The notes beneath the pieces were generated by a model. It was not told the DNA's origin. It was given only the letters and a program-made list of their open reading frames with translations, and searched no databases. From the NCBI RefSeq assembly GCF_006345815.1, contig NZ_VCIG01000007.1, positions 124,001 through 188,000 on the forward strand: DNA of 64,000 bases. Reading direction: 5' to 3'. Origin of the DNA: Ochrobactrum sp. CGA5. Lineage in GTDB: Bacteria; Pseudomonadota; Alphaproteobacteria; Rhizobiales; Rhizobiaceae. Made by a program: the position numbers and the translations under genes. Shown here one piece after another: positions 5,498 to 6,522 of this stretch (position 1 is its first letter; each line of letters begins with the position of its first letter).

Positions 5498-6148
5498 TCA
5501 GCCAGCTTTTGTGCGGTTTGGTGCGTAAAGCGTTGGAGCGAAGACGGCGAGGATAGCGCCGTAGGGGATCAGCATCAGTGTTCCCATGATGACCTTCACG
5601 AAAAAGTCACCAAAGGCCAGCGATCCCCAGAGCGGCACGCCCAGGCCCAGAAAGGAGGACGGCTCGGCAAGTGAGGAATCGGGCATGCCGGTCAATTTGT
5701 CGATCCAGGCGAAACCGGCTGCGAAGGCAATCGAGAAGAACAGGATCGTATCAAGCACCGAACCGAACATGGCGGCGGCAAATGGAGCCTTCCACCACGT
5801 CTTGCGACGCAAGCGGTCGAAGACAGTAATGTCCATCATCTGTGCGAGAAGGAAAGCAGAGCCCGAGGCAATAGCGATACGCGGTGTGGCGAGCCAGATC
5901 GACATGATGACGCCAAGAACGAAACCGGCATAAACGACTTTGCGCGCGGCGGCAGGGCCGAAGCGGCGATTCGTCAGATCATTGACCAGAAACGCGATGG
6001 GGTAGGTAAAGGCACCGTAGGTCAGCACTTCACCGAGACCAAAATGCTGGAATGGATATTGGACAAGAATGTTGGACGCAGCAACCGCCACGCACATGGC
6101 CAGTATCGCAGGCATGAGCCTGGAGAAAGAGGGTGTCTCGATTGACAT
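5498..6148 (-). CDS. yhhQ: Queuosine precursor transporter (YhhQ/VUT family)
   Basis: A predicted inner-membrane protein of 216 residues with about six hydrophobic segments. It matches the YhhQ/VUT family (COG1738), which imports queuosine precursors such as preQ0/preQ1. Family marks are YPIAFLVNDLTNRRFG near residue 48 and the DTILFFSIAFAAG segment. I start at the ATG at 6148; an upstream in-frame ATG at 6208 lies inside the rpmB terminator hairpin. AGGA, 7 bases before 6148, can serve as ribosome site and sits inside a preQ1-I-like fold that includes the start codon, which fits preQ1 feedback. It lies downstream of rpmB on the same strand. Confidence 0.88.
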   Translation of the reverse strand: MSIETPSFSRLMPAILAMCVAVAASNILVQYPFQHFGLGEVLTYGAFTYPIAFLVNDLTNRRFGPAAARKVVYAGFVLGVIMSIWLATPRIAIASGSAFLLAQMMDITVFDRLRRKTWWKAPFAAAMFGSVLDTILFFSIAFAAGFAWIDKLTGMPDSSLAEPSSFLGLGVPLWGSLAFGDFFVKVIMGTLMLIPYGAILAVFAPTLYAPNRTKAG

Positions 6149-6174
6149 TTTTTTATCCTGGGTGATGGAACCAG
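6146..6174 (-). promoter_or_regulatory. candidate preQ1-I-type riboswitch over yhhQ start
   Basis: On the minus strand the leader reads CUGG-UUCCAUCAC-CCAG-GAUAAAAAAAUG. The CUGG/CCAG stem, GGUUCC loop start, unpaired C before the 3' arm and A-rich tail parallel the preQ1-I aptamer. The loop CAU can pair with the start codon AUG to give the expected pseudoknot, which would hide both the AGGA and the AUG. The downstream gene is a queuosine-precursor transporter. This comparison was made from memory; no covariance-model search was run. Confidence 0.6.
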
Positions 6175-6203
6175 AAAAAAAGCCGACAGAAGCCGGCTTT
6201 TTT
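6175..6203 (-). terminator. rpmB terminator
   Basis: A GCCG/CGGC hairpin flanked by A and T runs directly follows rpmB. On the minus strand it ends in seven Ts, immediately before the aptamer-like sequence of yhhQ. yhhQ transcription from the rpmB promoter would therefore need read-through. Confidence 0.75.
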
Positions 6204-6225
6204 GTCAAAACTTTTGACCGGAAGC

Positions 6226-6522
6226 TTAGGCAGCGACTGCTTCAGCCTGCTTCTTTGCGATCTGACGCTTCAGCAGGCGAGCGCGCTGCGAGAGTTCCTT
6301 GTCATCAGACTTGACGAGGAACGCATCGAGACCGCCGCGATGTTCAACCGAACGCAGGGCGTTGGCGGAAATGCGCAGACGATAGCTCTGGCCGAGCGTT
6401 TCGGAGATCAGCGTAACATTGCAGAGGTTCGGCAGAAAGCGGCGACGCGTCTTGTTGTTCGCGTGGCTGACATTGTTGCCGTACTGGACCGACTTGCCGG
6501 TCAATTCACAAGCGCGGGACAT
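6226..6522 (-). CDS. rpmB: 50S ribosomal protein L28
   Basis: Bacterial L28, 98 residues, a large-subunit ribosomal protein. It starts [10 protein letters not shown], the standard L28 opening, and has the [14 protein letters not shown] segment near residues 16-29. The Ala/Glu-rich C-terminal tail is common in alphaproteobacteria. The start is the ATG at 6522; the longer upstream frame has no L28 similarity. A good sigma-70-like promoter lies 125-150 bases upstream on the minus strand, and a strong terminator follows the stop. Confidence 0.97.

Follow-up and report, generated by a model that had tools for sequence, protein, structure and literature searches.

The leader of yhhQ in Ochrobactrum sp. 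CGA5 contains a 29-base element that we read as a class I prequeuosine 1 (preQ1-I) riboswitch of a subtype that sequesters the start codon, acting as a preQ1-sensing translational OFF switch. On comparative grounds, we give this reading a probability of about 0.83. The gene lies in a 64,000-nucleotide stretch of contig NZ_VCIG01000007.1 (positions 124,001 to 188,000), which we call the window and whose coordinates are used throughout. The anatomy of the element is established by comparison of sequences across the family (Rhizobiaceae in the GTDB taxonomy). We infer its ligand, the direction and strength of control and its loop contacts by analogy with the E. coli homologue and from the gene that it precedes, yhhQ.

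A predicted pseudoknot that includes the start codon

The element, CUGGUUCCAUCACCCAGGAUAAAAAAAUG, runs from 6174 to 6146 on the minus strand, and its last three bases are the AUG of yhhQ. Element base i corresponds to window coordinate 6175-i on the minus strand. A four-base-pair stem, P1 (C1-G17, U2-A16, G3-C15 and G4-C14), encloses a loop whose C8, A9 and U10 are complementary to A27, U28 and G29 of the start codon. The preQ1-I class is an H-type pseudoknot, with a P1 stem and a loop strand that pairs beyond an A-rich L3, and the sequence has this arrangement. The class also has a specificity C, a U after the 5' P1 strand and a pocket A. At positions mapped from the E. coli structure (PMC10622847), these are C13, U5 and A26, present in 126/126 of the matching leaders described below. 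With its Shine-Dalgarno (SD) sequence overlapping P1 and the start codon serving as one strand of P2, the aptamer takes in the entire translation start region. The parts are as follows, with counts from the 126 core-matching gene-selected leaders; G6 and U6 denote lineages or copies with G or U at base 6.

5498..6148, minus strand: yhhQ, a 216-amino-acid queuosine precursor transporter (TIGR00697, 93.8 bits against a cut-off of 50.95; Pfam Vut_1)
6171..6174, minus strand: P1 5' strand, CUGG, bases 1-4; CUGG in 126/126
6168..6170, minus strand: L1, UUC, bases 5-7; U5 in 126/126, base 6 U in 74 and G in 52
6165..6167, minus strand: P2 5' strand, CAU, bases 8-10, the anti-start-codon; 126/126
6162..6164, minus strand: L2 (bases 11-12, C11 and A12) and C13; C13 in 126/126, A12 in 116/126; C13 (6162) is the presumed preQ1 specificity base by analogy with PMC10622847
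6158..6161, minus strand: P1 3' strand, CCAG, bases 14-17; 126/126
6156..6159, minus strand: SD sequence AGGA, bases 16-19, sharing half its length with the P1 3' strand and standing 7 nt upstream of the AUG; G18 in 125/126, A19 in 113/126
6149..6157, minus strand: L3, GAUAAAAAA, bases 18-26; A22-A26 in 126/126, A21 in 124/126; A26 is the presumed pocket adenine
6146..6148, minus strand: yhhQ start codon AUG, also the P2 3' strand, bases 27-29, complementary to the loop CAU
6145, minus strand: base 30, first base of codon 2; U and unpaired in the window copy, pairing with base 7 in G6 lineages

A first-pass annotation of this DNA had described a 29-base element with a CUGG/CCAG stem, a GGUUCC loop start, an unpaired C, an A-rich tail (UAAAAAA at 6155-6149, minus strand) and a loop CAU facing the AUG, and every one of these parts is present in the sequence. 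It had gone on to propose a preQ1-I-like fold with the start codon as the pseudoknot partner and an SD sequence overlapping the 3' strand of P1, which the family-wide comparison upholds. Energy calculations add nothing to this. The minimum-energy fold of the 45-base leader contains the 4-bp P1, and because that fold is no more stable than shuffled sequences (z -0.28), folding energy decides nothing for the element; with a pseudoknot this small, the lack of a signal comes as no surprise.

Conservation of the element in yhhQ leaders

We scored 136 leaders chosen by the presence of yhhQ alone (L004-L059 and L072-L151) over 24 core positions. There were 120 leaders with 0 mismatches, 6 with 2-3 and 10 with 7 or more; the best match in the same leaders reversed had 8 mismatches. 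Bases 1-5, 8-10, 13-17 and 22-26 were invariant in the 126 matching leaders. In the 30 leaders from the genus (L004-L033) the element is nearly unchanged while the preceding terminator stem and the following codons vary. The first-pass annotation had named an absence of conservation of the stem, the loop CAU and the A-tail as a ground for refutation. All three are kept in these leaders, which contradicts it.

The gene itself was found in 35/35 genus genomes searched and in 188/199 family genomes. Among the yhhQ matches listed for family genomes, we hand-picked 80 further leaders, one or a few per genus, and 73 of these carry the element by a loose regular expression (L086 is decayed). Its AUG is in the yhhQ frame in 72 of the 73, the exception being L087. 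A degenerate pattern that left CAU free at its third base and AUG at its first (NTG), with up to 2 mismatches allowed and copies with an inserted base counted as misses, occurred in 336/394 family genomes and 94/109 genera, and the reversed pattern in 0. Of 150 rows listed for this pattern, 2 irregular ones (G957 and G963) were dropped; among these matches listed, CAT and ATG were intact in 148/148 regular rows although the pattern left one base of each free. The range includes Brucella, Phyllobacterium, Bartonella, Agrobacterium, Nitratireductor and Ciceribacter, and the gene downstream was yhhQ in all 24 pattern-selected loci examined, with the element AUG in another frame in 3 of these.

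We also reduced 156 copies to 113 flank-distinct ones by dropping copies that were not 29 bases long, had flanks under 40/30 bases or shared at least 70% flank identity with a kept copy. Positions more than 10 bases upstream of the element carry only 0.01-0.15 bits in this set, so the flanks are near-random. The invariance of the element in it is partly circular, because 21 of its 29 positions were set in advance by the selecting regular expression (20 of them as a single base and one as C/T or the like), and for that reason the count was redone on the gene-selected leaders given above.

A few individual copies are worth recording. Genome G872 has two yhhQ copies (L278 and L279), each with its own G6G7 element, and in G002 yhhQ matches in three abutting or overlapping pieces, as expected of a frame-shifted gene. 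The element of L211 (Brucella cytisi) has a U-G wobble in P1 (CCGG). L156, on a contig filed as a Comamonas metagenome-assembled genome, has a Brucella-like yhhQ (95% identity), and the contig is probably mis-binned.

Complementarity between base 7 and codon 2

Bases 6-7 are UC in the window copy and UC, GG, GC or GA across the family. In the lineages with G followed by any base, base 7 joins P2 by pairing with base 30. Among 157 non-redundant copies, those with G6 had a G-C pair at 7:30 in 54/54, C-G in 5/5 and A-U in 4/4, making three pair types. Base 30 in the U6C7 copies was A in 25, C in 40, U in 29 and G in none (0/94). The flank-distinct set gave the same picture, with 7:30 complementarity in 50/50 G6 copies and 0/63 U6 copies, and base 7 was complementary to each of the other 14 downstream positions in 2-26 of the 50 G6 copies. 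The rows listed for the degenerate pattern, which overlap the other sets, gave 65/65, 14/14 and 0/69 for 7:30 among the matches listed. As a rough background, G is the first base of codon 2 in 13/49 long ATG open reading frames (ORFs) of the window.

Codon 2 of the G6G7 copies encodes Leu, Pro, Gln or Arg in many spellings, so the constraint at 7:30 acts on the nucleotide. Because of this complementarity, we conclude from the alignments that the CAU:AUG helix is real and, in G6 lineages, one pair longer. C7 of the U6C7 copies probably makes a base triple as its E. coli counterpart, C8, does. For the GGUGGCAUCACC copies we rejected the idea of a simple hairpin (GGUG/CACC), which is broken by copies with AACC, ACCC and UCCC. 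Within P1, one genome (G963) has a compensatory change from G3-C15 to A3-U15 (CUAG/CUAG), and U-G wobbles occur elsewhere in a 58-row alignment. Shuffles of that alignment reached values as high as the real ones in 0/500 cases for cells paired, 7/500 for cells changed on both sides and 13/500 for the covariation score.

Relation to known preQ1 riboswitches

The E. coli K-12 yhhQ leader is UUGGGUUCCCUCACCCCAAUGGUUAAUCAAAAAGGUACAAUAUG (in partial form, GGGUUCCCUCACCCC...AAAAAGG), and its loop, UUCCCUCAC, differs from that of the window, UUCCAUCAC, by one base. According to PMC10622847, the E. coli riboswitch is of type III, binds preQ1 with a dissociation constant of 58 nM, strongly prefers preQ1 over preQ0 and acts by burying the SD sequence; its crystal structure has U11-A28, C10-G29 and C9-G30 pairs with the SD sequence AAGG. 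The window counterparts are U10-A27, A9-U28 and C8-G29. One C-G pair has thus become A-U, and AAGG (SD) has become AAUG (start codon). By the same mapping U6, C7, A12, C13 and A26 correspond to E. coli U7, C8, A13, C14 and A27.

The two elements share the gene, the H-type pseudoknot plan, all but one base of a 9-base loop, a UU that follows the 5' P1 strand, an AC that precedes the 3' one, an A-rich L3 and a P2 adjoining the ligand. Unlike the E. coli element, the window element has AAUG instead of AAGG as its P2 partner, an SD sequence that overlaps P1 and a P1 of 4 bp; it belongs to an alphaproteobacterial family, and sub-lineages have GN for UC and an extra P2 pair with codon 2. The UU...AC feature of type III is present in the window copy and, within the family, only in U6 lineages (U6 in 74/126 and A12 in 116/126). 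AAGG in P2 is absent, with AAUG in the window and in 148/148 regular rows among the matches listed. Type III is described as almost exclusively gammaproteobacterial (PMC10622847), a range that the element does not share. Because the AAGG feature fails, the element is not type III in the strict sense.

It also resembles type II preQ1-I aptamers (T. tengcongensis and B. subtilis) in having a specificity C preceded by A, an A-rich L3 and an H-type pseudoknot; type II differs in its larger loop and in acting by partial SD occlusion or transcription termination (PMC11625349). The direct-occlusion riboswitches SAM-II/V, SAM-III and SAM-SAH likewise combine aptamer and ribosome-binding region in one unit. 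They differ in that the ribosome-binding site is typically embedded in P2, in contrast to a start codon in P2 here (PMC10907184). PMC11625349 tabulates the modes of preQ1 regulation as occlusion of the SD sequence (indirect, partial or full), domain docking and transcription termination. None of them acts through the start codon, and neither "start codon" nor "AUG" occurs in the main text of that paper. The same source predicts that translational riboswitches not relying on the SD sequence remain to be found, and the element bears on that prediction.

We judge it likely that the element represents a fourth preQ1-I subtype, in which the aptamer would make up the entire region of translation initiation. 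In many lineages codon 2 would lend its first base to a further P2 pair, so that coding sequence would be part of the aptamer. The subtype would stand one compensated base pair away from the E. coli SD-burying loop, and in g79 and in L087 the P2 strand AAUGGA may be an SD sequence for a downstream start, the SD and AUG modes interconverting. We file it as new in the sense of a variant with the start codon as P2 strand, the preQ1-I kind itself being known. If this is correct, a riboswitch can exert its control on the start codon within the very pseudoknot that binds the ligand, a single compensated base-pair change shifts control from SD to AUG, and a conserved aptamer can reach into coding sequence and shape codon 2. 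It would also predict several hundred unannotated preQ1 switches (336/394 sampled genomes) in a family of symbionts and pathogens.

No account of a preQ1 aptamer whose P2 strand is the start codon was found in the literature searched, and the McCown et al. 2014 survey of three preQ1 classes, which reportedly defined the subtypes and introduced the type III model, might already include copies from alphaproteobacteria.

Proposed mechanism and alternative explanations

At low preQ1 the pseudoknot would be mostly open, with AGGA and AUG accessible, YhhQ made and preQ1 or prequeuosine 0 (preQ0) imported. Plentiful preQ1 would pair with C13 atop G4-C14, the L1 uridines and L3 adenines would close the pocket, and pairing of CAU with AUG would complete the H-type pseudoknot. 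Half of the SD sequence would then lie in P1 and the start codon in P2, turning translation off. In G6 lineages P2 would gain one more pair and so reach codon 2. Genes for Tgt (471 bits, cut-off 306.75), QueC (182.8, cut-off 150.3) and QueF (152.2, cut-off 86.9) are present in the genome, so preQ1 should be made and used.

We weighed three other explanations, which are not mutually exclusive. An ordinary SD-occluding preQ1-I riboswitch would hide AGGA in its fold, with the CAU:AUG match a side effect of the abutting gene. AGGA does overlap P1, G18 is G in 125/126 matching gene-selected leaders and the E. coli type III element works by burying its SD sequence (PMC10622847). However, the helix runs past the AUG into codon 2 with three pair types, and all seven g79 rows among the matches listed keep P1, CAU:AUG and C7:G30 despite a change from AGG to AGC. 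P1 should moreover fold even when no ligand is bound, in which case an SD sequence half buried there would give no switching, and we regard plain SD occlusion as quite unlikely. A sensor of preQ0, queuine or another deazapurine, whose ligand might even differ between U6 and G6 loops, is unlikely in light of the identical C13, G4-C14, U5 and L3 adenines in both loop types and of the strong preference of E. coli type III for preQ1 over preQ0 (PMC10622847). Such a ligand would fit the statement in the same source that YhhQ imports preQ0 in preference to preQ1, and L1 bases 6-7 do vary by lineage, the E. coli counterpart of U6 contacting the pocket adenine (PMC10622847).

The last explanation dispenses with ligand sensing and supposes a protein or small RNA binding site, or an optimal translation start under selection. 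It would suit a sequence that is almost invariant, with hardly any covariation in P1 and CAU:AUG. We find it very improbable for a loop one base from that of a validated preQ1 aptamer on the same gene, with yhhQ downstream in all 24 pattern-selected loci examined (3 in another frame) and with complementarity at 7:30.

Several observations weigh against the preQ1 riboswitch reading. RF00522 scores under its cut-off in both window and genome, and R1, a covariance model that we built from 58 copies, does not find the E. coli element. Ten of the 136 gene-selected leaders differ from the core at more than 3 positions; in 8 of these the element is decayed or absent, and 2 have one inserted base. The pairs of P1 and CAU:AUG vary so little that they contribute next to no covariation. 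Along the branches of a 110-protein tree (at least 170 amino acids required; leaders L072-L151 left out), loop class changed 7 times, base 30 25 times and G6/U6 6 times, yielding only 3 independent pairs on supported branches; 3/3 agree (sign test, p 0.25). Mutual information at 7:30 is 0.41 and not the highest, with lineage-driven pairs reaching 0.76. U6 copies also lack G at base 31 (0/63, as at base 30), so G avoidance in these copies extends beyond 7:30. When the 58-row alignment was shuffled, neither the count of pair types nor that of pairs altered on both sides stood out (498/500). Finally, the element AUG is out of the yhhQ frame in L275, L277 and L285 (g79) and in L087 (g39), where the first in-frame ATG is 7-14 nt downstream.

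The Rfam scores need a qualification. No Rfam match in the window reached the gathering threshold. In a lax search RF00522 aligned over the full length of the element but scored 15.6 bits, short of the gathering cut-off of 39 that membership takes, and over the whole genome it gave nothing above the cut-off (best 21.8 bits, before queF). Lack of a match to this model had been named in the first-pass annotation as grounds for refutation, and to the letter it is what we obtained. The test was not a fair one, though. The E. coli K-12 yhhQ leader, our calibration, carries the validated type III loop and linker GGUUAAUC, and RF00522 was not listed at all in a lax search of 251 bases around its yhhQ start. 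The low RF00522 score is therefore no evidence against the element. With RF00522 under its cut-off and R1 missing the E. coli element, the type III link rests on base-by-base correspondence and has no profile score.

Out-of-frame and decayed copies

In L275, L277, L285 and L087, and also in L276 (g79), where the element AUG is in frame with yhhQ, CAGC replaces CAGG; P1, CAU:AUG and C7:G30 are kept. The P2 strand AAUGGA of the g79 and L087 copies contains GGA, closely spaced to the later start in L087. This GGA could serve as the SD sequence for the later start in the out-of-frame copies, which may represent a return from start-codon to SD sequestration.

The 11 Bartonella yhhQ leaders (L195-L205) display stages of element decay while yhhQ stays. 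In five of them (L196, L197, L198, L201 and L202) the element is intact with a U-G wobble at position C1, and in the other 6 it is broken or unrecognisable. Two g91 genomes (G884 and G923) have an intact element.

Range outside the family

A 27-base pattern with up to 3 mismatches was found in 12/297 genomes of the order, once each and all in the same family, and the reversed pattern in 0. The element was followed by yhhQ in 12/12 of these loci, and G124 was the only family genome in this sample without a near-exact pattern. R1 searches of more than 40 genomes used stricter filters, with which weak matches can be lost. Such a search of 367 genomes of the class gave one strong match (55.1 bits, the window's own) and 9 others of at most 28 bits, and one of 378 genomes of the phylum gave 15 strong matches (51-56 bits), all within the family, and 6 others of at most 28 bits.

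We set aside the 15 weak matches outside the family (at most 28 bits, E 0.003-0.09), which are fewer than expected by chance at E 0.1 per genome. No intact element was seen in the 11 of them that were inspected, and tblastn with six yhhQ proteins found no yhhQ in the loci of the 14 that have one. When 40 yhhQ leaders of non-family origin were searched with R1, no copy was recovered, the sole match (11.3 bits) being an A-run. By eye, the yhhQ leaders L261, L266, L267 and L214, from another alphaproteobacterial group, carry an element that also resembles preQ1-I but is a different one. It occurs in variants of CCAAGU..CCGC..ACC..UUG..AAAACGG, with a possible P1 of CAAG:CUUG and P2 of CCG:CGG.

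A second element before queF

A second element, GGUCGCAGCCUACCCGGUUAAAACAAGG, precedes queF in the same genome (L001:1501-1540, G000:C31:726641-726680), and from its sequence it looks like a type II preQ1-I aptamer. A 14-codon ORF (ATG at 1549) lies between this element and queF, and its TAA overlaps the queF ATG (TAATG), an arrangement that suggests control of queF through a coupled leader peptide.

Flanking genes and the rpmB terminator

The window YhhQ protein, which we take to be COG1738, is 98% identical to a Brucella tritici protein. Two features lie upstream of the element.

6226..6522, minus strand: rpmB (L28), the upstream gene (TIGR00009, 89.6 bits against a cut-off of 48.3)
6176..6203, minus strand: rpmB terminator hairpin and U run just upstream of the element, from folding

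The aptamer had been said to begin exactly where the rpmB terminator ends. This holds in the window (hairpin 6203-6176), and in the genus leaders inspected the T run ends within about 1 base of the element. It does not hold as a general rule, since several family leaders (e.g., L036, L043, L061 and L068) have unrelated sequence at the terminator position. On this comparison the junction is incidental and no conserved part of the element. Lax Rfam matches over the terminator on the plus strand (STnc350, AgrB and others) were set aside, as they look like a hairpin with A/T runs.

Just before the terminator hairpin is a TTGACA (6203-6208, minus strand), which could be part of a promoter or the A-tract of the terminator. 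It is kept in 23 of the 30 genus leaders L004-L033, counted by eye, among them L013-L017, in which the intergenic sequence upstream of TTGACA is otherwise replaced.
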